From NCBI RefSeq assembly GCF_026210795.1, contig NC_089430.1:496001-560000 (forward strand): a DNA stretch of 64,000 nucleotides. The letters run 5' to 3'. Positions 1,207 to 45,046 of this stretch are shown piece after piece. The stretch's first letter is position 1, and every line of letters starts with the position of its first letter. The notes beneath the pieces were generated by a model. It made no database searches and had not been told where the DNA came from. It was given only the letters and a program-made list of their open reading frames with translations. The stretch is from Rhizophagus irregularis (taxonomy: Eukaryota; Glomeromycota; Glomeromycetes; Glomerales; Glomeraceae). A program made the position numbers and the translations under genes.

Positions 1207-1716
1207 CTAAGTATTTATGTTACTAACGCATTCTCTTTTGTGCTTTGGCCAGTCCTTCTTCTGACAATCCTTGCTACAATAGTACACTGATTTACATTTA
1301 CTGCATTTCATATTACAGCTATTCATGCATATTTTGCATACCCCTTCAGTTACCCCAGTTACCTCAGTTTGTTCAGTTGCGCATATGTGCGGTCTCTTAA
1401 CTTCTTCACCTTGGACGATTTTTTTACATTTAAGACATTGCCATGAGTGCGGTGGCTGATCCTGCAATATAAACTTGCGACCGTAGAAAAGTAGCACCTT
1501 TTTAGCATGTTCAATCTCTTCCTCCCCATCATCAGGTCCAAGAAGTGATATTTCCCAACAACAGGGACAAATTCCAGTCATTTCTTGGTATTCACGTCGA
1601 CTAGGCTCGTTTGGAAATATCTTGGGAGATTCTTTACAACTCATACATTTTTTATAACCGGTAATATTAGTATCATATGGTACAACTTTATCAATAATTT
1701 CCAAACGGTTAGACAT
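1207..1716 (-). CDS. MYND zinc-finger protein with N-terminal Cys-rich domain
   Basis: An intact 169-residue single-exon frame. The C-terminus (about residues 127-164) is a canonical MYND finger: CKIC, a CSKC pair, YYCSKDCQ, then WPKHKREC, so all zinc ligands are present. MYND domains usually bind proline-rich peptides in partner proteins. The N-terminal half carries two further Cys pairs (CMSC about 24-27; CPCC about 50-53) around a '[12 protein letters not shown]' motif that recalls small zinc-binding proteins of phages and bacteria. Residues about 92-112 add a CLKC/HIC cluster. The start was taken at the first ATG of the open frame. Function beyond protein or nucleic-acid binding cannot be inferred. 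The MYND call is firm and the N-terminal resemblance is only a recollection. Confidence 0.85.
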
Positions 1717-2740
1717 CTTGAAAAGTATCTTTTTAAATTTTTATGTAAGAATAAATTTTTTTTAAAAAAAAAGAATAAAGAATAAAGAATAAAGAAAAAA
1801 AAACACAAAAATGTTTGCAACACAAACTTTTTAAGCGTACGAAAGATCAACAAATAACAATATCACAAATTTTATTTTTGCACCATTTATAAATGGTTTG
1901 GAAATGATTTCTGTAATAAGTTAGTTTTGAAGATTACTTCTAGTTTTAGGTTTTTATTTATTAAAATTCAAGTATTTTTGGTTACAACAATCCTTAAAAA
2001 TTATAATTATTAATATCATACATTAATGTATATAAATTATCATTTAAAAACATTCCTTCCATAGTTCCATAGTTAATAAGAAATTTTTCCAAGGTTCAAA
2101 AAGTTAATGAAACTAAAAAATAGTCATGAAAAACAAAAGAAAATCATTTACTTTTTTTATTATTGTATTCAATAGATCACATACTCAATAAATAAAATTT
2201 CTTATAAAACATATAATCCGGATATTTATGAAAATTTCGAGAATCTCTTAAAAATAACAAAAAAAAATATTTTTTCATTTCCTTGTCATTTAGAAATGTA
2301 CTATAAGTCCACATTAAAATTCAAAAAGTAATCACTAAAGAAAAAATGAATAAAAAGGAATAACAAAAAAGTAAAAATAAAGGAACGTTAATTACATCCC
2401 TAAAAAGACAATGAAAATAAAAACTGAAAAAGATTACCTTAGTCATCAGAAAACCCAAAAAACCACGTCTAAAGAAAACTAATTTAAGAAGGAGCGTTAA
2501 TTGCGTCCCTAAACAAGAAGTTTAAAGACAGAAAAATAATTTACTGTTTAGTTCTTAAGAAACTCCAAGAAGCCATCACTAAAAGAAAAAATAATCAATG
2601 TTAATTACGTCCAAGAAAAAAAAACGATAAAAATAAAAGGAGCATTAATCGTACCCCTAAGCAAAAAAAATTACTGGACAACAATAAAACCAGTAAAAAA
2701 AATATTTTTAAAAAAAATTTATGCTGACCCTTATTTGTGC
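1717..2740. repeat. AT-rich spacer with degenerate tandem repeat
   Basis: No gene seen. Between about 2280 and 2680 a degenerate direct repeat recurs. Its core is 'GGAaCGTTAATTaCgTCCCTAA', with starts near 2381, 2491, 2597 and 2639. The first two units are about 110 bp apart, and the flanking text (gaaaataa..ttactt..aaactcc) also repeats. The units differ by many substitutions, so the array is old. Confidence 0.5.
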
Positions 2741-6872: not shown

Positions 6873-7331
6873 TTAAAAAATACCACCAACTAATCTATAA
6901 ACAAGATTTATGGTATTTCTTGTCTTAATATTATAACTCGACAGTGTTCTGTCATCTAAGAGTGGTTGACCTCCAAAGATATATCTTTGTTTACCTACTT
7001 CTAATCCATTTCTTTCATAATATAATTCTTTAACTTTTTTAATGGTATATGAAGACTGCACTTGAAGAGAAGTTGTTCTTCCGTCTAAATCTTCAACAAA
7101 TATTTGAATGCCACCAGTAACGATAAGAGTGAGTCTAATTTGATCATTTTCTTTAATGTTATAATCGTTTATAGTCCTTTCATTCTCAAGTCTTTGGCTT
7201 CCAAGGTGTAATAATTGTTTGTTTACATCAATATCATGGAGTGCTTTGATTTTATTTTTGACTTGTAGAATCGTATCATAAGAATTAACTTCAATTCTTG
7301 CTCTAAGCCTGAATTTAACAAAGATAAACAT
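6873..7331 (-). CDS. Tandem ubiquitin-like protein (two domains)
   Basis: An intact 152-residue, single-exon frame made of two beta-grasp ubiquitin-like domains. Domain 1 (about 1-75) begins MFIFVK and ends TGG. Domain 2 (about 76-150) begins IQIFVEDLDGRTTSLQV, contains YIFGGQPLLDDRTLSSYNI and ends RLVGG followed by Ile-Phe. This mirrors ubiquitin, including the LxFxGxxLxDxRTLxxYNI core and a C-terminal Gly-Gly. Domain 1 is shorter by about two residues in its first hairpin. The two residues after the last GG mean a protease would have to trim it before conjugation. It could also act unprocessed as a ubiquitin mimic or adaptor. It diverges from an RBR ligase gene starting 184 bp away. Confidence 0.9.
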   Translation of the reverse strand: MFIFVKFRLRARIEVNSYDTILQVKNKIKALHDIDVNKQLLHLGSQRLENERTINDYNIKENDQIRLTLIVTGGIQIFVEDLDGRTTSLQVQSSYTIKKVKELYYERNGLEVGKQRYIFGGQPLLDDRTLSSYNIKTRNTINLVYRLVGGIF

Positions 7332-7515
7332 TTTTTATTATCAATAGAGGAGATAAAGAATAAATGACATAATAATAATTTGCGTATCTAATATAAACAC
7401 CCAAAAGATGTTAAACTATAAATGGATTAAATTGACATCTCAAACCATTATAAAAGCTAGTTGGTTTCTTTTTTTTTTTAAATAAAATTTCTGATAAAGT
7501 GATACTAAATAAATT
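7332..7515. promoter_or_regulatory. Shared divergent promoter, ubiquitin-like gene / RBR gene
   Basis: 184 bp separates the two start codons, so both promoters must lie here or overlap the genes. The right part holds a T-run followed by AAATAAAATTTC (7470-7490). Co-regulation is inferred from geometry only. Confidence 0.5.
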
Positions 7516-14480: not shown

Positions 14481-15198
14481 ACTAACAAACTTACACTAAA
14501 ACTCCTATCAAAATGTTCATAAAGGACTGAATAAACAGTTGGTGATGTTGAAATGCGTAAAATAACGGCTTAGTCGACTTAATTTTACATAGCATCATAT
14601 GAATAACGAACTACCGATTCGTCTGGTTAATTAATGATTTATTTATATTAAAAGTTTTGTATACTTTATATATAAAAAGTCTTGTTATTCTGTGCCGAAA
14701 AATTCCTTCTGTTTAGAAATGACTACGTTACGTCGTTACGCATCAAACGTGGTGTAACGGTAAAATAAACATAAAAGATCATTTATACTGTATGTTGATG
14801 ATCTTAATTGTTAAGAATGTTATCAAAACTCCGGACAATAACTTATTTATTTCTTCAGAGAATATATCATATTACACACCGATACTGGAGTAACAATAAA
14901 TAAATCGAATTTTCGAAATGGAAATCAAAAAAGAAGAAAAATTTTTACCACAGAATTCTATAATTCATTTCTATATTGGGTTCCATGGATTATGTAACTA
15001 GCAAAATTCAACTAGTCGCAGTCACGTGCATTCTGTTACGCCACTATAATTTGTGATCATTTAGTATGTATGTAACATGATGCAGTCAGTTTCTTACGAA
15101 AATTCTAAAAGTTCTAATAGATTATCTTTAAATAAACTATAAAAATCGCTACGTAATTTTCTTTGTTTTAATAAAATTTCTTAAATAAACACAACATA
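14481..15198 (+). promoter_or_regulatory. Upstream region and conserved promoter motif of kinase 1
   Basis: Gene-free. The block at about 15100-15150, 'TTCTAATAGATTATC' then 'TAAATAAACTATAAAA', recurs at 21290-21345, 32790-32840 and 45235-45300, each time 40-70 bp before a kinase start or its remnant. The AAATAAACTATAAAA part looks like a TATA region. It is likely the core promoter, inferred from conservation between paralogues and position. Confidence 0.55.
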
Positions 15199-18051
15199 AT
15201 GGAACTTACAAATAAAAATAATTTTGACCCAACACCGAAATTAAAATCTAGTCCCATACCGATTTTATTTCTTCCATTTAATAATGAGAAACTAAGATGT
15301 AATAATTGTGGAAATAAATATTCTACCACATATTTGTATGAACAGAAATATTGCAAACAATGTTTATTATTGTACATTGAAAATATAGCAGACAATACGG
15401 ACAATAACAAATACTTTGATGTAAACATTATGACAATAAATACTCATTGCATTGAACACAAGTCAACAAGAAAGATAACATTTTTTACAAAAAGCATCCA
15501 GGAATGGTGTGTAAATTGCTCAGAAATTTTATATTTTAATAATTACTATGATTACGTTATCAATACTACGACGAAGTGTATTCGTAAAGAAAAGGATTGT
15601 AAATTATGTGAAAAAAAATTTGTTGATAAGAATACCTTTGAGATTAAGTTGTGTTCTAATTGCTACTTAATTTCTTCTGGGTGGACAAAATCAATTCTTA
15701 CTAATAAACCTATTCCAATACTTCATTTACCATGGTGGGATGCTTCCAATAAAAGTAGGGTCTGCAACCATAACCTAAAATTTCTAACCGATTGTAAAAA
15801 ATGGTGTTCATATTGCTTTATAGTTTACGTAGGGTGTAGATATTGTTTGACAACGAATATAATTTTTGGAATTATTGATCAAACTCAATGCAAAAAATGC
15901 AAAAGAATATCAAATATAAATATTGATATCGAAATTATTAGCAGTGGAAATCACGATATAGATGAATTTCTTATTTCTACAAGAACAAATACCGATAATC
16001 ATGATAAGTTTGCTAATTATATGAATAATAGTGATAAAAATTCTAATCCTTTAAACGTATATAATTTTATCGAACATAAGCTTATAAATTTTAATTATAA
16101 ACGAACAATGGAATGGATTCCGTATTCTCAAATTAATAATTTAGAAAAGATAGCAGAAGGGGGATTTGGTATTATTTATAAAGCAATTTGGTTAAATAAA
16201 ACTTCTGTTGCCGTAAAAAGATTTTCAAAATCACATATAATAAACTTTTTAAATGAGGTAATTAATTATAACAATATTTAATTTAATTAGTTGTTGTACA
16301 TTTTATCACTAAATTGAATTTATGACTTTTAGGTGAAATCACTCCATCGATGCTATGATTCAGTTTTTATTGTTAAATATTATGGTATTACGCAAGACCC
16401 TGTAATAAAAGACTACATGTTAATTATGGAATATGCGAGAGGCGGAAATTTACATAGTTATTTACAAAAAAATTTTACAGATATTAAATGGACCACAAAA
16501 TTAGCTGTTTTATGTCAAATTTCAGACGGGTATTTATGTTTATATTAATTATTCTATAAATAATTACGCGAAATGATATTAAAATTTAAATTACTATTCA
16601 TACTAGACTTAAGGCTGTTCATAACGAAAATTTCATACATCGAGATTTTCATAGTGGAAATATATTATCATTAAAAAATGATCACAAAAAATGGGTAATT
16701 GGAGATTTAGGATTATCACAACCAGAAAATAATTCGTCGAATAATGAAATATATGGAGTAATACCTTACGTCGCACCGGAAATATTTCAAGATGCTATGT
16801 TTTCAAAAGAGTCTGACATATATAGCTTGGGTATGATTATGTGGGAATTAACAACAGGTTGTAAGCCCTTTTCTAAAGTTGAACATGATGCTGGACTTGT
16901 TCTTCAAATTATTGATGGTAAAAGACCTGAAATCACAATTGATACTCCTGAGTGTTTCGCTAATTTAATGAAAAGATGTTGGGATTCCAATCTCTTAAAG
17001 AGACCTTCCATAGCAGAAATTAAAGAAACCGTTGATGGTTGGTACAAAAAGCGTAACAAAACTGAAATAATATTTAGTAACGCTGAGGAACAACGAATAG
17101 GATTAATACAATTGAAACAACTTGGACCAAAATTTACAGAAAAACAACATCCTGGCGCTATTTATACTAGTAGGCCTATAAAATCTCTTATTTCTCAAGT
17201 TTCATCTCTTAATTCGTCTTCGACTATTTCGAATCAAGTTTCGAATCAAGGTATGTATTAAAAATTAATTAATGATATATTACTTGAATAGTTTAATAAT
17301 AGATAAAATTTTTATTCTTTACAGTATACACTTCGGAAGAATATAAATTTGATATAGATAATAGTCATGATACTCAAAGGTATTGTAATAAACTTATTTA
17401 ATACAGAAAAAAGATCGTTATCTAACTTCTATTAACAAACTTAGACAAACCATTTCAAGATCTTCGTCTATCAAATCATCATCTGGTATGTACAGTACTA
17501 TTACTTAAAAATATTTCTTGATTTTATATTAAGTTTATCTTTCTATCTTATAGGATATATTTCAAACGATTTAGATTTTGATATAGAAACAAATACTCAA
17601 AGGTATTAAAATGAAACTTATTTGATACAAACAAGATAAATTATCTAACTTTTGATTATAATAAACTTAGATTAACCACGTTTGAATCTATAAGATCTTC
17701 GTCTATCAAATCATCTTCTGGTATGTACAGTACTATTACTTGAAAAAAAAAATTTCTTGATTTCATATTAAGTTTAATGTTTTTCTATTATATAGGATAT
17801 ATTTCAAAAGATTTAGATATAGATATAGAAACAAATACTCAAAGGTACATATATGTTTAAGATTAAATACATTGTTTTATTTTTTTAAATTTTTATTTAA
17901 ATTAAATTTTGTTAATAATAACGATATACTATTTTATTGACATTTTAGGTTATCTACAATAAATATAAATTCAATGTCACATCCAAATGCAATTTATACT
18001 AGTAGACCATTAAGCGCACTTATTTCACATGTAAGGAATAATAGAAATTAA
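15199..18051 (+). CDS. Cys-rich TKL-type protein kinase 1, nine exons
   Basis: The exons are 15199-16257, 16333-16529, 16607-17250, 17325-17379, 17445-17485, 17554-17602, 17671-17720, 17796-17844 and 17949-18051 (2247 nt, 748 residues). All introns are GT-AG and the frame closes. Residues about 30-240 hold paired cysteines (CNNC, CKQC, WCVNC, CKLC, LCSNC, WCSYC, CRYC, CKKC), probably zinc-binding. ISSGNHDIDEFL and EWIPYSQ lead into the kinase domain: glycine loop IAEGGFG (about 318-324), VAVK Lys340, catalytic HRDFHSGN with Asp432, metal-binding DLG Asp452, YVAPEIF, SDIYSLGMIMWE and RPSIAEI. All catalytic residues are present, so it should be active. The tail has two in-frame exon-pair repeats (RSSSIKSSSGYIS..DL, IETNTQR) and ends near IYTSRPLSALIS. 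Its paralogue is at 32894-35739. Confidence 0.88.
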
Positions 18052-22906: not shown

Positions 22907-25900
22907 TCATATTTCACAATCCGAACATTCATCAGAATAATTATAATAGTATTTTGATAGATTTTTTGTATAAGGATTAAGTAATTGAGATGTATAAAAA
23001 GCTTGTGGATGATGAGTTACTGATTGTTTTTTTTCCTCTAAAATTAAGAAATTTGATTCTTTATATTCATCTGCTTTTTTGAATTGCTTTTCAATATCAT
23101 AATGTTGTTGTTCTTTTTCTAAATATAAATCTGATTCCGGAACATATGAATCATAAAATAACGAAAACAATTCATATATTTCAGTTGCTTTTGGCCTATT
23201 ATCTGGATTTGAATTCCAACACCTTTTCATTAAATCAATATAACACTCTGGTGCTTCTTGATCATTTATATTAGGTCTGCTTTCATCTTTACAGATATCT
23301 AATGCCAAAGCTTCATCATGTGCTCGATTGGCAAAAGGTTGTCTTCCTGTTGCTACAAAATACATAATCATACCAAAACTATATATATCTGCTGCTTGAG
23401 TATAAGGGTTTCCTCTTAAAACTTCAGGAGCTACATATGGCATAACTCCATAAATATCCGATTTATCTATTTTATCAACTTTTCCACATAATCCCATATC
23501 CGATATAACCATTGAAATAGTTTTATCTAAAGAATTGGACATTGATAATATATTTCCTGTATGAAAGTCACGATGAACCATTTTATTTTCATGAATTCCT
23601 TTAAGGCCACTAATGATAAAACGTAATACATTTATATTATATGACCAATCAAATTTTTTGTAATGCTTATTTACCCAATGACATAAATTTCCACCTTCTG
23701 CATAATCAAGAACCATAATATAATCTTTTGTATCAGTATTTTGGGATATTCCATATACTGAAAGAATTTCATTTAATTCATAAATAGAATATTCTTTAAT
23801 CTATTAAAAGTTAAACCACTAATTACTTTTAATATATTTAAAAAGTTTTAAGATAGGAAAATCTCATCATACCTCATTTAAAAATTTAACAGTAATATTT
23901 TGTGAATCATATAATTGTTTTAAAGCAATTTTTTTCTTATCTCTTACATATTCACATCCATTATAAGATAATGGTCCATCTTTCCATGTTGCTGAATATA
24001 TTGTAGCAAAACCACCTTTACCTATTTCTTTAATATTACTAAATTGATTGTATGGTATCCATTCAAATATTATATCTTTTGAATTATCAGTTTCCGATTG
24101 CATTTCTTGAATTAATTTGTCAATTCTTTTATTTCCACTAGTTCCGTATATTAAGTTTTTAATATTCTTTAACTGGCATGGTTTACACCACTTATTAAAT
24201 AAAAATGATGTATATTTTTCATCACATTGTTCACAATACTCATTTTCAAAAACTATAATATAATCTTTTGTATTAGGATCTTGAGATATTCCATATTTTT
24301 TTATAATTGAACCTTTTTCAACCTATTAAGTATTAACGTTAATATTAAAAATTAATCATTAAAAAATAAATCGCGTTATTAAAAATCAAATCTATAGAAA
24401 ATTACTGTACCTCATCAATAATATTTTGTGAATACATTAAAGAAACTTTTAATTTTAATCTTCTTTTCTGATCTTTTTCATAAAGATTATCATAATATAA
24501 AAAGTCATTATTCCATATTACTGAATATATGTTATCATCACTATTTATCTTTTTAATATTAATAAATTGATTGTATGGTATCCATTCAAATGTTCTATTA
24601 TTATCTATTCTATTAACTTCTAATTGCATTTTTTGGATCAAGTTATCAATTTCATCATTTTCGCTAGTCCAGTTTGCAAAGTTTAATTTTAAATCATTTT
24701 CTAAACATTCTATACATCCATATTTAAGATTATACATAAAACATTCTACACCACACCTTTCACAAAAACATTTACTTGTAATAACAATAATATAATGTTT
24801 TGTATCTTGATTTTGAGATATTCCATATATTGAACTATCACTTTCTGATAAATATTCTTCAACCTATAAGAATAAAAAAATCAAGTATACATTATTATTT
24901 CAAAAAATAAATAAATAAATAAATAAATAAATATTTGTTAGAAATTCCATACCTCATCTGTAAATTCATCAATACTTTGTAAATCATATAATTTTAAATA
25001 AACTTTCTTATTTGATTCTCTTGTCCATTTCTTATCATAATAAAGTAATGGACCATCTTTCCATATTGCTGAATATATTGTAGTAAAATCATCTTTATCT
25101 ATTTCTTTAATTTTAATAAACTGATTATATGGTATAAACTCAAGTATTGTATCATTAAGATCACTAATTTTCAATTGTATTTTTTGAATTAAATTATCAA
25201 TTTTTTTATTTCCACTGGTCAAATTTTTAAAAAATAATTTCAAATAATTCATGTGACATAATCTACACCAATTAGAATTTGTATTTATGTAATTTTCATC
25301 ACACTTATTGCATTTTTCATTATATTCGTTTTGAAGAATCATAATAAAATCTTTTGTACTTGGATTTTGTGAAATTCCAAAAATTTTACCATGATACTTT
25401 TTAACCTATTAAGAATTCGTAATTAATTATTAATATAATAAAAACACTATTAAAATTATAAAGAAAACATCAGAAACTTCGTACCTCATTTAAAAATTCA
25501 TTATTAGTAATATTTTGGAAATTATATAATTTTAAAGCAACTTTTATATTACGCTGATTTCTCATATACTCATTTTTTATTTTATCATAATTTAATGGAC
25601 CATCCTTCCATATTGCCAAATATTCTTTAGTAAAAATATCTTCTTTAATATCATTTAACTGATTGTAAGGTATCCATTCGAATACTATATCTTGATTTTT
25701 ATTAATTTCTAATTGCATTTCTTGAATTAAATTATCAATCATTTCATTTCCACTGGTCCAGTTCATAAAATTTTGTTTTAAATTATTTATTTGACACATT
25801 TTACACCACTCATCACTTGCATCATCTTTACATTTATATTGTTCATTACATCTTTTACAATATAAAATCGGAAAAACCATAAGATAGTCTTCCGTATCTG

Positions 25901-26984
25901 GATTTTGGGATATTCCATATATATTAAGATGTTCCTCAACTTTAATCTATTAAATCAAAAAAAAAATTAATAAAGAACTATAGTTACAAATAAATTTATA
26001 TCTATAAATTCATACCTTATTTAGAAATTTAGTAATATATTGTGAATTATATAAATATTTTAAATTAACCCTTTTATTTGATTTTCTCGTCCATTCTCCA
26101 TCACTATAATATAATGGGCCATTCTTCCACGTTGCAGAATATATTATATCCAAATCAATTTTACTTATTTCTTGAGTATTATCTAACTGATCATATGGTA
26201 TCCATTCAAACACTAGTTCTGATTCATAATTGATTTTTAATTGCATTTCTTGAATTATATTATCAATTATTTCATTTCCACTGATGGCCAAATTTTTATT
26301 AAAGTAATATATTTGACATGATTCACACCATTTTTTAATTATATTTGTATACTTTTTACCACATGTTTTACAATATATTTCTTGAAAAACGATGATATAA
26401 TCTTTTGTATTTGGACATTGAGATATTCCATACATTCTAAGAACTTCACCAATATATGTTATAGAATATTTTTTATCCTAATAGAAAAAAAAATTATGTT
26501 AATTATTACAAAGGAAATGAAAATTAAATTCATAAAGAAGTTTTATTGTTACCTGATCAATAAAAAATTCATTAATGATATTTTGTAAATTAAATAATTT
26601 TAAAGCAACTTTTTTATCCTGTTGATTTCTTGTATATTCATTTTTATATTTATCATAATATAAAGGACCATCTTTCCATATTGCTGAATATATTTTATCA
26701 AAACCTTCTTCGTTATCAAAATCTTCTTTATTACCTAAATTTGTAATATCAATAAATTGATCATATGGTATCCATTCAAATATCATATCATCAAATTCAT
26801 TAATTTCTAATTGAAATTCTTGAATTAAATTATCAATTTTTTCATTTCCACTGGTCCAATTTGTAAAATTTTGTTTTAAATTATTGATTTGACATGATTT
26901 ACACCAATTATACTTTATATCATATTTACTAGTATATTTTTCGTCACATTCCTTACACTGATCGTTATCGTCTTGATATAACAT
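22907..26984 (-). CDS. Kinase with six tandem zinc/N-lobe exons, one intact kinase
   Basis: The minus-strand exons are 26984-26553, 26477-26016, 25946-25485, 25405-24953, 24863-24411, 24322-23873 and 23800-22907 (3606 nt, 1201 residues). Every intron is phase 0, about 75-90 bp, GT-AG. Exons 1-6 are repeats of one unit: a CxxC...WCxxC zinc motif, SGNxxIDNLIQ, FEWIPYNQ, a kinase beta1-beta3 segment (IYSAIWKDGPL...VALKL) and a helix-C end (FLNE). From exon 2 each also begins with a beta4/beta5 piece YGISQNPDTKDYII. Only exon 6 keeps the glycine loop (IGKGGFA, about 854-860) with Lys889. Exon 7 supplies the hinge (DYAEGGNL), HRDFHTGN (Asp982), DMG (Asp1005), YVAPEVLRG and RPKATEI. Units 1-5 have lost the glycines but mostly keep a beta3 Lys. 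One full kinase plus five pseudo-N-lobes is the simplest reading. Alternative splicing could join any unit to exon 7. Confidence 0.85.
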
Positions 26985-28990: not shown

Positions 28991-29534
28991 TCTGTAGTTC
29001 ATGTGATAAATTTTTTATATATAAATTTTTGTAGCAAAGTGTTCATTACATAATTCAAAGATTTATACAGGTAGTCTAAACGACACCACGTGACTGCATG
29101 ATTTAAGTATATAGATAAATATATAGATTATTTATAATTTCTTCAAGTCACACCAAAAATTGTTTGCATAAAAAAATTTCTGACTTAAATTCTTGGCAAT
29201 TTCTTCATAGAATAGAAACGCATTACATACACACCGACACCATTCTTAATAGAAAGCAAAAAAATTTTCATACGCTGATCTAATCCGAATAAGTTATCGC
29301 CCGATGACTGTTTTGGGATAAATTTTGTTTATCTCACCCCACTCGGGTGATCATCAAAGGATATAACCTTATTATTTACGTCACAAGTGCATAGGTTATA
29401 TCCTTTGGTGGGCGGCCCATGGGCATTACTATATAAGTCACGTGACTTTTAATTTTAACGTTAATATTTTAATGCTAATTTCAGCACATACCTATAATGC
29501 CCATAACGTCTGGCGCACATTTCCAGAGAAACAT

Positions 29535-30080
29535 GCATTAGTCTGGCGCATGTTTCCCAGAGTAACATGCGCTAGTCCCGCCGCATGTTTCCTAGAGTAA
29601 CATGCGCTAGTCCTTGCCGCATGTTTCCCAGAGTAACATGCGCTAGTCCTTGCCGCATGTTTCCCAGAGTAACATGCGCTAGTCCTTGCCGCATGTTTCC
29701 CAGAGTAACATGCGCTAGTCCTTGCCGCATGTTTCCCAGAGTAACATGCGCTAGTCCTTGCCGCATGTTTCCCAGAGTAACATGCGCTAGTCCTTGCCGC
29801 ATGTTTCCCAGAGTAACATGCGCTAGTCCTTGCCGCATGTTTCCCAGAGTAACATGCGCTAGTCCTTGCCGCATGTTTCCCAGAGTAACATGCGCTAGTC
29901 CTTGCCGCATGTTTCCCAGAGTAACATGCGCTAGTCCTTGCCGCATGTTTCCCAGAGTAACATGCGCTAGTCCCGCCGCATGTTTCCCAGAGTAACATGC
30001 GCTAGTCCTTGCCGCATGTTTCCCAGAGTAACATGCGCTAGTCCTTGCCGCATGTTTCCCAGAGTAACATGCGCTAATTC
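29535..30080. repeat. Left-arm 36-bp minisatellite, about 15 copies
   Basis: Units of 36 bp, CCGCATGTTTCCCAGAGTAA plus CATGCGCTAGTCCTTG, are nearly identical across the array, with variants at both edges. Each unit contains GCATGTT...AACATGC, a small palindrome. Because 36 is divisible by three, both strands show long repetitive frames that are not genes. A degenerate continuation runs to about 30360. Confidence 0.95.
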
Positions 30081-30689
30081 CCTACCACACATTTTCCAGA
30101 GGTTATATCCTTTGGTGGGCATCCCATGGGCATTACTATATAAGTCACGTGACATATAATTTTATAAAGTTCTTAATTCTGGAACATATTACTAAAGCAA
30201 TATGTGATAATTCTAGCACACAAATTCTCTCCATGTTTATTTCTGTAATATGCAATAACTTTGGTGCATATTTCCTACTGTAACATGCGGTAATTCTGGT
30301 GCATGTTTCTTACTATAACATGTGGTAACTCTGGTGTATATTCCTTACTGTAATGATTCTGATTTCTGATACATGTTCTTATGTTTAAAACATCAAATAT
30401 TTAAACTGAATATTACCAGAATCACTGCATTATATTATAGAATATTGCATATTATACATCAGGAATATATGCAAGAATTGTTGTATATACATTATAAATT
30501 TACATTGGAATGTATGTTAAATTACTGCATATTATATTAATAAATAATATACAGCATCTGGAATATGTGCTATGATTACTGCATATTATGGTAGAAAATA
30601 CATATTAAATTGTTATATATTTTTTTTGAAATAGTATTTAAAGTTTATTTTAGTAATTTTAGCAAAAAAATAATAAACAATAAAAAATT

Positions 30690-32100: not shown

Positions 32101-32893
32101 CTCTGGGATTGTGTGCCAGACATTATGGGCATTATAAGTATGTGCTGAAATTAGCATTAAAATATTAACGTTAAAATTAAAAGTCACGTGACTTATATAA
32201 TAATGCCCATGGGCCGCCCACCAAAGGATATATCCTATGCACTTGTGACGTAAATAATAAGGTTATATCCTTTGATCACCCGAGTGGGGTGGTTTATCTC
32301 CCGAATGATCCTTTTGTATATTTCCATTTCAGCTAGCCGCAGTCACATGCATCCTGTTACTCCCAAGAAAATTTTTTTTTTTTAAAAAAAAATAAATATA
32401 ATAAAACCGAATTAAGTTTCATTTATATGCATGAAATGATTAAATTATAAATATCGCTACTTAATTTTCATTGTTTTACATAAGTTTCTTTAAATGTAAC
32501 ATCATGGCCAAAATTTTTAAGTTTTTTTTTTTTACTGTATTTAAACAATTTATGTATGCACTAATATGTGACAGGTGTGACACGCTCAGATGCAAATCTA
32601 ATGTCTGGCATAATATATTCTACAATAAAGGGATCAAAGATGATGATCAAGATGATGTAAGATAATGTCATTAGGAAAGTCAAGTCCGTCAAGCCCGATA
32701 CTTTTTGCATTGCAGCTACATGCATTCTGCTTACAATTTTTGTGGCTTAAAAACTGTTTTCGTAACATGCAGTATCTTAAAAAAAAAATGGAAATTCTTA
32801 AAGTCCTAATAGACTCTTTGTAAATAAACTATAAAATCACGAAATATTTTTCTATTTAAACTGGCTCAACGGTTAAAACGTCAAATCAATATA

Positions 32894-35739
32894 ATGGAAT
32901 TTATAAATGAAAATAACTTTGATCCAACGCCAAAATTAAAATCTAGTCCTGTACCGATTTTATTTCTTCCCTTTAATAATGAAAAACTTAGATGTAATAA
33001 TTGTGAAAATAAATATTCAGCCACAAATTTATATAAACAGAAATATTGCAAACAATGCTTATCATCGTACATTGAAAATATAACGGACAATAACATTTAT
33101 TTTAATGTAAATATTCTTACGAATAATGAACATTGTATTAAACATAAATCAACAAGAAATTTAAATTTTTTTACGAAAAATATTCAAGAATGGTGTGAAA
33201 ATTGTTCTGAAATTTCATATTTTAAGAATTATTATGATTATATTAATACTACAACGCAATATATATTTATAGAAAAGGACTGTAAATTATGTGGTAAATT
33301 AATCGATAAGATTTCTTTCGGGTTTAAAATGTGTTCCGATTGTTACTTAATTTCTTCTGGGTGGATAAAATCAACTATTACTGGTAAAAATATTCCAATT
33401 CTTTATTTACCATGGTGGGATACTTCCAATAAAAGTATATTTTGTAAGCATAACTTAAAATTTATGACAGATTGTCAAAAATGGTGCTCAGATTGCTTTA
33501 TAATTTACGTAGGATGTAGATATTGTTTGACAACAAACATAATTTATGGGATTATCGATCAAACTCAATGTATAAAATGCAAAAGAATATCAAATATAAA
33601 AATTGAATTTAAAAATATTAGCAGTGGAAATCACGATATAGATGAATTTCTTATTTCTACAAGAACAAATACTGATTGTCATGATAAGATTGCTAATTAT
33701 AAGAATACTATGAATAAAAATTCCGATCCCTTGAGCGTATATAGTTTTATTGAACGAGAACTTAAAAAGGTTGGTTCAAAACGAACAATGGAATGGATTC
33801 CATATTCTCAAATTAAAAATTTAGAAAAAATAGCGGAAGGAGGATTTGGTATTATCTATAAAGCAATTTGGTTAAATAAAACAACTGTTGCCGTAAAGAG
33901 ATTTCGAAAATCGCAGGATATTAGCAAATACTTTTTAAACTTTTTAAATGAGGTAATTATTATTTTTATTTATAATATTTACGTAATCATATTAAACTAA
34001 TTATTGGATTTATGATTTTTTTTAGGTGAAATCTCTTCATCGATGTTATGATACAGTTTTTATTGTCAAGTATTATGGTATTACGCAAGACCCTGTAATA
34101 AAAGATTATATGTTAATAATGGAATATGCGAGTGGTGGAAATTTACACAGTTATTTAAACAAAAATTTTATAAATATTAAATGGATCACAAAATTAGCTA
34201 TTTTATGTCAAATTTCAGATGGGTATATATTATTATTAATATTTCTATCAATTTCATTTATGTGAAATAATATTAAATTATTTAATATTTTTTATTCTAG
34301 ACTTAAGACTATTCATCAGGAAAATTTTATACATCGAGATTTTCATAGCGGAAATATATTATCATTAAAAAATGATCACAAAAAGTGGGTAATTGGAGAC
34401 CTAGGATTATCGCAACCAGCAGATAATTCGTCGAATAATGAAATATATGGAGTAATACCTTATGTCGCACCAGAAATATTTCGAGGTGAAGTATTTTCGA
34501 AAGAGTCTGACATATATAGTTTGGGTATGATTATGTGGGAATTAACAACAGGTCGTAAACCATTTTTCAATATTGAGCATGACATTAATCTTATCTACCA
34601 AATTATTGATGAAAAAAGACCAAAAAGACCTGAAATTACAACTGATGCTCCTAAGTGTTTTACTAATTTGATGAAACAGTGTTGGTATTCTGATCCCTTA
34701 AAACGACCTTCCATAACAACAATCAAAAGCATCGTTGATGATTGGTATAGAAAATGTAAAAAAGATGATGATATATTGGCTAAAGCTGATAATAAACGAT
34801 TAGAATTAATTGAATCGAAACAAATTGGCCCTGAATTTACCGAAAAACAAGATATAAGTGCTATTTATACTAGTCAGCCTTTAAGTTCTCTTATTTCCCA
34901 AGTTTCATCTAATAACTCATCTTCAAGAGTTTCGAAGCAAGGTATGTATTATTTTTATTTGAATAATGTAAAATTTAATAATTATTAAATTTGCTAATTA
35001 TTTTTACAGTATGTACTTCAGAAGAATGTAAATTTGATACAGATAATAGTCATAATACTCAAAGGTATTGAAATGAACTTAGATAACGATCTTTTTTCTA
35101 TATAAATAACTTTTATTAACAAACTTATACAAACCATTTTTTAATCTTCAAGATCTTCGTCTATCAACTCATCATCTGGTATGTACAGTACTATTACTTA
35201 AAAAGATTCCTTGATTTTATACTAAGTTTATCTTTCTATCTTATAGGATATATTTCAAAAGATTTAGATATGGATATAGAAACAAATACTCAAAGGTAAT
35301 AAAATGAAACTTATTTGATATAGACAAAAATAAAATTATCTAACTTTTGATTATGATTAATAATAATAAATTTAGACTAACCACGTTTGAATCTTCGTCT
35401 ATCAAATCATCTTCTGGTATGTACTGTACTGTTACTTAAAAGATTTCTCGATTTTATATTAAGTTTAATATTTTTCTATTATATAGAATATATTTCAAAA
35501 GATTTAGATATGGATATAGAAACAAATACACAAAGGTACATATATGTTTAAGATCAAATATATATATATATTTTTTTTTTTTAAATTAAATTTTTATTAA
35601 TAATAAACGTTGTTGATATTTTAGGTTATCCACAATAGATATAAGTTCTATGTCTCATAATATTTCGCATCCAAGTGCAATTTATACTAGTAGACCATTA
35701 AGCGCACTTATTTCACATGTAAAGAACAATAGAAATTAG
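32894..35739 (+). CDS. Cys-rich TKL-type protein kinase 2, nine exons
   Basis: The exons are 32894-33952, 34026-34222, 34301-34941, 35010-35064, 35153-35178, 35247-35295, 35376-35416, 35487-35535 and 35625-35739 (2232 nt, 743 residues). It is the paralogue of the gene at 15199-18051, with the same architecture: Cys-pair region (about 30-235), SGNHDIDEFL, EWIPYSQ, glycine loop IAEGGFG (about 313-319), Lys335, HRDFHSGN Asp432, DLG Asp452, YVAPEIF, SLGMIMWE and RPSITTI. Catalytic residues are intact. Exon 5 uses a shifted acceptor: the AG used in paralogue 1 reads AT here (about 35126), and the next in-frame AG at 35151-35152 shortens the exon by 15 bp without changing frame. The first glycine of one GYIS repeat is Glu. 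The foldback element sits about 600 bp upstream, between the conserved upstream blocks and the promoter. Confidence 0.87.
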
Positions 35740-44269: not shown

Positions 44270-45046
44270 GAATATATATTTATCCAGTACGGTACGAATT
44301 TGCAAACCTGTACGGTACGGTTGATCAATTTTTGTGATAATCATTTCGGACCATACCGTACTGGTTCTATATATAAAGAGATTATTATAGAACCAGTACG
44401 GTACGGTACGAAATGATCAACCATAAAATTTAACCAACTGTACCATACCGTACTGGCTCTATAATAATCTCTCTATATATAGAACCAGTACAGTACGGTA
44501 CGGTTATTGTTTTAAATGGACATTTTGGACATTGGTGTCCAAATTATTAAAATGAAAATTTTGGACATTGGTGTCCAAATTACAAAAATGAACATTTTGG
44601 ACATTGGTGTCCAAATTACAAAAATGAACATTTTGGACATTGGTGTCCAAATTACAAATGAATATTTTGGACATTGGTGTCCAAATTACAAAAATGAACA
44701 TTTTGGACATTGGTGTCCAAATTACAAAAATGAACATTTTGGACATTGGTGTCCAAATTACAAAAATGAATATTTTGGACATTGGTGTCCAAATTAGAAA
44801 AATGAACATTTTGGATATTGGTGTCCAAATTAGAAAAATGAACATTTTGGATATTGGTGTCAAAATTACAAAAATGAACATTTTGGACATTGGTGTCAAA
44901 ATTAGGAAAATGGACACTACTGATTTTCTCTTTATTATAGTGTCGGTACGGTACGGTCATGTTGATCAAATTTTGTAATTTTGTATGGGTGATCAACTGT
45001 ACCGTACAGGTTTGCAATTTCGTACCGTACCGATTATCCTACTACC
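44270..45046. mobile_element. Inverted-repeat element carrying a minisatellite, 777 bp
   Basis: Near both ends lie mirrored blocks: TACGGTACGAATTTGCAAAC and CTGTACGGTACGGTTGATCA on the left, their reverse complements on the right (44985-45030). The 10-bp duplication TCCATTTCAG (44260-44269 and 45047-45056) flanks it. Copy E at about 59345-59360 shows the uninterrupted site. GTACGGTAC motifs recur within 44390-44510. About a dozen 36-37-bp units fill the centre. The outermost 15 bp of the two ends match poorly. Non-coding. Confidence 0.8.
44515..44915. repeat. Minisatellite, 36-37-bp unit, about 11 copies
   Basis: Unit AAATGAACATTTTGGACATT plus GGTGTCCAAATTACAA. Each unit contains TTGGACATTGGTGTCCAA, itself a palindrome. 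Long repetitive frames exist on both strands because most units keep a length near 36, and they are not genes. Confidence 0.93.

Follow-up and report, generated by a model that had tools for sequence, protein, structure and literature searches.

We report here that a kinase gene on the minus strand of a 64,000-nucleotide stretch of Rhizophagus irregularis DNA (contig NC_089430.1, positions 496,001 to 560,000; this whole stretch is referred to as the window) probably encodes one 1201-residue protein, in which five zinc-bearing kinase N-lobes that would not bind ATP precede one complete kinase that looks active and resembles the tyrosine kinase-like (TKL) group. The run of upstream N-lobes, termed the necklace below, is proposed to act on the terminal domain as an array for regulation or docking, and the probability of this reading was put at roughly 0.72. 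The exon layout, the intron phases, the loss of ATP-site residues at particular positions, the retention and constraint of the remainder and the recurrence of the layout across the genome are evident in the DNA; the first four, taken together, argue for one protein whose upstream N-lobes, unable to bind ATP, are kept for some other purpose. Serial and constitutive splicing of exons 1 to 7 is what we infer.

The gene runs from 26984 to 22907 and comprises seven exons and six phase-0 introns in one frame of 1201 codons, its splicing, like that of the related arrays described below, being predicted from DNA. Its parts are as follows.

Exon 1, 26553-26984 (432 bp), minus strand: start methionine, zinc motif, SGN/ID helix, EWIPY, beta1-beta3 and alpha-C, forming pseudo-N-lobe 1; no glycine loop.
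Exon 2, 26016-26477 (462 bp), minus strand: beta4/beta5 finishing N-lobe 1, then zinc motif and pseudo-N-lobe 2.
Exon 3, 25485-25946 (462 bp), minus strand: beta4/beta5 finishing N-lobe 2, then zinc motif and pseudo-N-lobe 3 (a unit grouped with unit 1 in the tree).
Exon 4, 24953-25405 (453 bp), minus strand: beta4/beta5 finishing N-lobe 3, then zinc motif and pseudo-N-lobe 4.
Exon 5, 24411-24863 (453 bp), minus strand: beta4/beta5 finishing N-lobe 4, then zinc motif and pseudo-N-lobe 5.
Exon 6, 23873-24322 (450 bp), minus strand: beta4/beta5 finishing N-lobe 5, then zinc motif and the intact N-lobe (GKGGFATIY, IALK).
Exon 7, 22907-23800 (894 bp with stop), minus strand: beta4/beta5 finishing the intact N-lobe, then C-lobe (HRDFH, DMG, APE), C-terminal tail and stop.
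Introns (all within 23801-26552), minus strand, phase 0: 26478-26552 (75 bp), 25947-26015 (69 bp) and 25406-25484 (79 bp).
Further introns of the same span, minus strand, phase 0: 24864-24952 (89 bp), 24323-24410 (88 bp) and 23801-23872 (72 bp).

All six introns have the form GT...TAG, measure 69-89 bp and contain an in-frame stop. Exon 1 opens with a methionine close before the zinc motif, and exons 2 to 6 open with beta4/beta5. Units 1 to 5 aligned to unit 6 with 43-53% identity; the four zinc cysteines, the S and N of SGN, the E, I, P and Y of EWIPY and the beta3 lysine were invariant across all six units, and the glycine loop GKGGFATIY was present in unit 6 only. A first-pass annotation of this DNA had described six exons of 432-462 bp encoding the same zinc/N-lobe unit, with a beta4/beta5 piece fused to the front of the zinc exon from exon 2 on, a glycine loop retained by the sixth unit alone, next to the C-lobe exon, and introns all of phase 0. 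The exon coordinates, the alignment of the units and the six introns agree with that description throughout. The names glycine loop, VAxK, HRD, DFG, APE and alpha-C glutamate, and the numbering of the beta strands, follow general usage for kinases.

The terminal domain looks like a complete, active and TKL-like protein kinase, and exons 6 and 7 together carry the full set of kinase motifs (GKGGFA, IALK, HRD, DMG, APE). Pfam matched the window protein to PF07714 (E 2.3e-40) over residues 851-1114, starting in exon 6, and thus detected only the last N-lobe and the single C-lobe of the gene. Among the matches to solved structures that were listed (60 of 1,111), most were to roco4, MAP3K9, RIPK1, MAP3K12, TAK1 and B-raf; the highest-ranking one, however, was an EGFR construct in which the kinase is present twice (1.1e-10 for each copy), and further matches were to JAK-type, ephrin and other kinases. 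Exon 7 alone gave no match against PDB (phmmer, E 1e-20).

The first-pass annotation had suggested that the same exon array be sought in other assemblies. Within the R. irregularis genome itself the layout was found to recur, in 29 arrays including that of the window. This recurrence confirmed that the layout is more than chance and is not peculiar to the window gene. The genome searched comprised 146,748,485 bases in 32 contigs; the published long-read assembly of strain DAOM197198 is given as 32 scaffolds and 146,773,001 bases with uniform coverage (Manley 2023, PMC10234402, in the sections available). In a search with exon 6, the best 150 of 4,970 first-look candidates were scored as matches. 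A DNA pattern for EWIPY occurred 2,472 times in the genome, against once for its reversed control, and a strict DNA signature of the fused exon 264 times, against none for the control. Array loci (29) and single-unit loci (8) were fetched, giving 32 array groups with the window, of which 29 have a C-lobe exon (the window and 28 of the fetched loci) and three do not, namely L029, which is cut by the fetched stretch, and a short group each in L008 and L021. The 5' end of L025 is missing from the fetched sequence, only 49 residues of the C-lobe exon remain in L010, and two units split into fragments, in L008 and L018, were merged. In the fetched loci the strict signature matched 54 times per 148 internal units; extrapolated to the whole genome, this means about 724 such exons and, at 148 internal units per 32 array groups, very roughly 150 arrays. 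The loci behind this estimate had been picked for their likeness to the window exon or out of the first 100 EWIPY sites.

Arrays with a C-lobe exon held 3-12 units (median 6), the C-lobe exon always came last (n=29), and no unit on the opposite strand was found inside any of these 29. Junctions were solved with all three phases permitted and the search confined near the expected exon ends; 171 of 177 could be solved as GT-AG, all 171 in phase 0, leaving six unsolved, with a median spacer of 72 bp and a length divisible by three in 51 of the 171. No stop was found in any of the 180 extracted unit exons, a count biased by the exons having been cut from open frames. Searches of IMG/VR and GTDB genomes for relatives yielded pattern matches only, none of them confirmed by tblastn.

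Within each unit the intron lies between alpha-C and beta4, and thus a duplicated exon takes in the closing part of one N-lobe together with most of the one that follows. The beta4/beta5 region was compared over 23 columns, with 124 of 127 internal exons and all 24 C-lobe exons matched and L002, L003, L004, L007 and L010 left out. Starting two residues ahead of YG and continuing through beta5, internal and C-lobe exons were alike in conservation; from the hinge onward they diverged, and the first column differed as well. Because internal beta4/beta5 follows the conservation of the C-lobe exons up to the hinge and then departs from it, the duplicated segment appears to be one whole N-lobe, from zinc motif to hinge. 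The fused exon noticed in the first-pass annotation would then be the trace of a duplication breakpoint at the hinge. In the surveyed arrays the beta4 motif was found in 0 of 32 first exons, 108 of 119 middle exons and 29 of 29 last exons, and several of the middle exons scored as negative carry variants such as YGMSQ. Among first exons 24 of 32 have the four-cysteine motif, among middle exons 106 of 119 and among last exons 27 of 29; it is absent from the units of L007. Although 24 of the 32 first exons have a methionine ahead of the zinc motif, the same holds for 52 of the 133 non-first exons that gave a zinc match, so start codons alone are no proof of a single start. A profile search of the units against PDB gave as its best match a zinc stretch of ribosomal L37 (E 0.54) and was not used.

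Three of the surveyed loci showed peculiarities of their own. The first exon of L014 (C11:5042000-5048500) retains a beta5-like remnant, TKDYIM, whose methionine may be the start codon, as if this exon had formerly been internal. L007 (C2:391800-401200, minus strand) is a 12-unit array of a different kinase subfamily without the four-cysteine motif, in which units 5 and 7, and units 8 and 9, have identical N-lobe stretches; it has a single-unit relative in L026, and its makeup suggests that it grew separately or was recently homogenised. L021 (C26:2311800-2320800, minus strand) has a five-unit array and, upstream of it, a two-unit group that lacks a C-lobe; the first two units of the array match this group with 92% and 96% identity.

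The glycine loop is tied to the last position. Among arrays with a C-lobe exon, 24 of the 29 last units have it, but only 3 of the 138 units upstream (3 of 151 when the three groups without a C-lobe exon were counted). Random placement of loops within arrays would put 5.06 of the 29 at the last position, and 0 of 100,000 simulations reached 24. The last units that failed the strict loop pattern were those of L002, L003, L004, L010 and L007, the L007 loop being AKGGFG, which this pattern misses. The remaining four arrays, all loopless, have HRD or DFG lesions or are without most of the C-lobe (4/4), versus 1 of the 25 others (Fisher 2.1e-4), that one being L005, in which DFG is changed; HCD (L012) and HHD (L026, L028) were not scored as lesions.

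A tree was built from 198 of 204 array units and 9 single units, six array units of fewer than 110 codons having been dropped; as it has few columns and long branches, only its starred groups were used. The label 'last' needed 13 changes on this tree, versus 27-33 when a random unit per array was so labelled (200 shuffles). The last units of L010 and L003 grouped with internal units of sister arrays, as if these two loci had lost their true last exon.

Conservation was compared between 145 upstream and 28 last units, leaving out L002, L003, L004, L007, L010 and the single units, with residues numbered as in the trimmed window unit 6. The columns in which the commonest residue reached at least 0.85 in last units and fell below 0.5 upstream were G64, G66 and G67 of the loop and A96, the VAxK alanine. 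Further upstream drops were seen at F68 (1.00 to 0.55), the alpha-C glutamate Glu113 (1.00 to 0.59) and L100 (1.00 to 0.77), while the second zinc cysteine pair (0.99), W51 of EWIPY (0.95) and the beta3 lysine K98 (0.90) were kept. Judged by these columns, upstream loss is concentrated on the ATP site, though not confined to it. With loop and VAxK alanine gone from most upstream units, these kinase-derived segments would qualify as pseudokinases by their ATP-binding motifs; they do not form complete two-lobed domains, there being no C-lobe between units and each next unit beginning at the hinge.

These counts bear on the second of two outcomes offered by the first-pass annotation, which allowed for a 1201-residue protein with five pseudo-N-lobes or for a cassette that splices differing N-lobes and sensor modules onto one catalytic lobe. 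The first outcome, a single gene with five pseudo-N-lobes, is supported. A cassette in the manner of the Dscam exon clusters would splice single zinc/N-lobe exons one at a time onto the one C-lobe exon, yielding kinases with differing sensors. Phase 0 at 171 of 171 solved introns means that exon skips keep the frame, and tandem repeat exons with alternative splicing are described for brown algal ROCO genes (PMC11378527, in the sections available), both of which speak for a cassette. However, the loop is missing in 135 of 138 upstream N-lobes and the VAxK alanine is mostly gone, so that isoforms made with upstream exons would probably be dead kinases, and the beta4/beta5 head of an internal exon would be left without a partner if that exon came first, since it needs a preceding N-lobe exon. 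The interchangeable, competent exons of the Dscam type are likewise not what is seen, most positions in the window family being fixed across six paralogues. Splicing as a cassette is thus unlikely.

The window gene has five paralogues on four contigs, each with six units in the same order: L009 (C2), L038 and L039 (C5), L040 (C6) and L041 (C8). In the tree, units 2, 4 and 6 each formed a starred group by position with six rows, and unit 5 formed one with five, L009 having been dropped. Units 1 and 3 fell into one starred group of twelve, with unit 3 of L009 and of L038 beside unit 1, and these two positions were not cleanly split. Since the five position-matched paralogues share the six-unit layout, the array predates their divergence, in contrast to the first-pass annotation, which had the gene itself built by five duplications.

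The ratio of non-synonymous to synonymous substitution rates (dN/dS), pooled over this family, was 0.34, 0.72, 0.45, 0.47, 0.44 and 0.52 for units 1 to 6 and 0.42 for the C exon, with 140, 98, 142, 138, 81, 145 and 277 codons compared, respectively; broken exons in the paralogues shorten the comparison for units 2 and 5. Pairs with dN below dS numbered 15, 14, 15, 14, 13, 15 and 15 in the same order, of 15 each. Other array pairs gave 0.25-0.97 per unit. On these ratios the five upstream pseudo-N-lobes appear to have been kept by selection.

A reading in which the upstream units are decaying, tolerated relics of duplication, with only exons 6 and 7 or a shorter transcript functional, would account for the loss of ATP-site residues upstream, for three broken exons among the five paralogues, for the mildness of the dN/dS ratios and for continuing array turnover such as the identical stretches in L007. 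Against it, the pooled ratios of units 1 to 5 (0.34-0.72) bracket those of unit 6 and the C exon (0.52 and 0.42), the losses cluster at the ATP site with zinc, SGN, EWIPY and the beta3 lysine retained, and the extracted exons are free of stops, subject to the bias given above. We regard decay of this kind as improbable. Separate genes for each exon or small group, or an assembly artefact, the outcomes named in the first-pass annotation as undoing its account, are very improbable. Internal starts are conceivable from the methionines before zinc, but spacers have a median of 72 bp, 171 of 177 junctions solve as phase-0 GT-AG introns, only the first exons are without a beta4 head (0/32), the window units are diverged (43-53% identical to unit 6) and read coverage of the published assembly is reported as uniform (PMC10234402, in the sections available).

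For the preferred reading, a single protein with a necklace of N-lobes, we propose the following course. The N-lobe segment from zinc to hinge would have been duplicated in tandem, with the intron inside it splitting each N-lobe over two exons, and serial splicing would rebuild complete N-lobes across each intron. Only the final N-lobe would be joined to a C-lobe and keep the ATP-binding loop. The upstream N-lobes could pair with other kinases through their retained alpha-C/EWIPY face, as pseudokinases do, or alternatively their zinc modules could bind ligands; array length would set the valency. BRAF has, beside its N-terminal acidic motif, a tryptophan that lodges between alpha-C and beta4 (PMC13192968, a preprint, in the sections available), and the W of EWIPY may by analogy do the same. 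If so, its retention would point to a beta4 supplied by the next exon, which is our proposal. By the same analogies a multivalent docking or pairing array is the role we prefer.

In three sister loci, all on the minus strand, the necklace is joined to a part resembling MLKL, and the terminal kinase is degenerate (L002, L003 and L004). The C-lobe exon frame of L002 (C1:5109500-5115500) is 644 residues long and contains two Pfam kinase stretches with MLKL_N (PF22215) between them (E 1.1e-8, 35.1 bits against a cut-off of 27); against PDB its helical stretch matched only weakly, MLKL at E 0.03. L003 has the same parts in one frame, at 60% and 78% identity, and in L004 they are fragmented and the frame is broken. 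Across the genome 125 matches to the helical stretch were found (of 138 candidates, all scored); in the window no match to it was found at E 1e-5, and the tail of the window gene is without such a part. The fusion hints at a sensor or regulatory role for the necklace, a hint that concerns the sister loci and says nothing directly of the window gene.

Several observations weigh against the reading of a retained regulatory necklace. The MLKL-like fusion was probably one event, because the sister loci lie on one contig. None of the spliced units 1 to 5 of the window gene was recognised as a kinase by Pfam, and an AlphaFold2 model of exon 6 with six window-unit rows reached a mean pLDDT of 47 and a pTM of 0.40; it was not used and lends nothing to the idea that the pseudo-N-lobes fold on their own. 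Among the 11 arrays that came from the EWIPY list, the strict loop rule was passed by 6 of 11 last units (7 of 11 if AKGGFG of L007 is counted) and by 2 of 47 upstream units. Some upstream losses fall outside the ATP site, for example S103 (1.00 to 0.71). A dN/dS of 0.3-0.7 amounts to mild constraint, with unit 2 at 0.72, single pairs exceeded 1 in units 2, 4 and 5, and exons are broken in L039 (exons 2 and 6) and L009 (exon 5). The proposed regulatory or docking function is drawn from analogy.

More broadly, the kinase N-lobe may have become a free-standing tandem-repeat domain in these fungi. Perhaps some 150 genes, by the rough estimate above, would then each carry a necklace whose zinc/pseudo-N-lobe modules meet other kinases, or factors of hosts or microbes, as binding units, decoys or partners. 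Each necklace would be linked to a single effector (usually a catalytic kinase, in one sister group an MLKL-like helical part), and arrays would turn over in length and content like a recognition repertoire, as sensors in fungal self/non-self or cell-death signalling. This wider view is tentative, and we consider it more doubtful than not. If the narrower reading is true, a pseudokinase would here be built in a new way, from half a kinase domain that recurs as a conserved module without catalytic function. A protein built in this way can escape domain annotation, as pseudo-N-lobes 1 to 5 escaped Pfam when spliced, and the finding would give some structure to the kinase expansion of this arbuscular mycorrhizal fungus, which has lacked an explanation.

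The window holds other features besides the array gene. Two mutually similar kinase genes of another kind (EWIPYSQ, IAEGGFG) flank it on the plus strand, each with several CxxC motifs ahead of a single N-lobe.

15175-17261, plus strand: first flanking kinase gene.
32828-34988, plus strand: second flanking kinase gene.
29508-30154: array of 36-bp repeats, with a 68-bp direct repeat at its borders (29390-29457 and 30097-30164, 93% identical).
44504-45038: tandem repeat in which several frames of both strands stay open.
45923-48112, minus strand: 729-residue open frame, DUF7431 (E 4.3e-94), with a fungal MACPF-like match under the curated cut-off.
1207-1740, minus strand: MYND zinc finger protein.
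6873-7334, minus strand: protein with two tandem ubiquitin-like domains.

Among known systems, the terminal kinase of the window gene is presumably a member of the expanded kinases of R. irregularis, for which 2,533 members (Manley 2023, PMC10234402) and about 28% of putative genes (Lin 2014) have been given, and in expanded families duplicate genes are said to stand in tandem arrays (PMC8647823). In contrast to the window gene, these published accounts, in the sections available, give counts and gene arrays rather than repeated N-lobes within one gene. Pseudokinases are described, again in the sections available, as allosteric partners, switches, scaffolds or competitors (PMC8141879).

Pairing as in RAF and KSR offers a further likeness, in that the W of EWIPY may correspond to the BRAF tryptophan, and the nearest solved sequences, among the matches listed, include B-raf and other TKL kinases. 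KSR, however, has both lobes. MLKL is resembled by L002 and L003, in which an MLKL_N-like domain is followed by a second kinase-like domain, and by L004 in pieces; the MLKL-like part is, however, limited to this sister group, the window-gene tail being without it. A survey of pseudokinases across life by Kwon in 2019 is said to report fungal pseudokinase expansions. Brown algal ROCO genes also have tandem in-phase exons with one repeat each, a leucine-rich repeat (LRR), but there the LRR exons are of 72 bp and subject to shuffling and alternative splicing (PMC11378527, in the sections available), while array exons here carry parts of two adjacent N-lobes.

Arrays of kinase N-lobes were not found in the literature covered, which consisted of titles and abstract openings and of sections of some papers, most subscription papers lying outside that scope. 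Nearest in layout come tandem kinase-pseudokinases and JAK, in which the second domain is complete (PMC6170490, in the sections available). In plant tandem kinase-pseudokinases (WTK1/Yr15, RPG1) and animal JAKs, as would hold for the window gene, a pseudokinase part lies in cis with an active kinase, sometimes by duplication (PMC6170490; PMC8141879). With its one C-lobe the window gene does not have the at least two complete domains that define the tandem type, which L002 and L003 approach in part through the second kinase-like domain in their C-exon frame. Thus while the partner in WTK1/Yr15, RPG1 and JAK is a complete kinase or pseudokinase domain, in these arrays it is the N-lobe alone, repeated 2-11 times together with its zinc modules.

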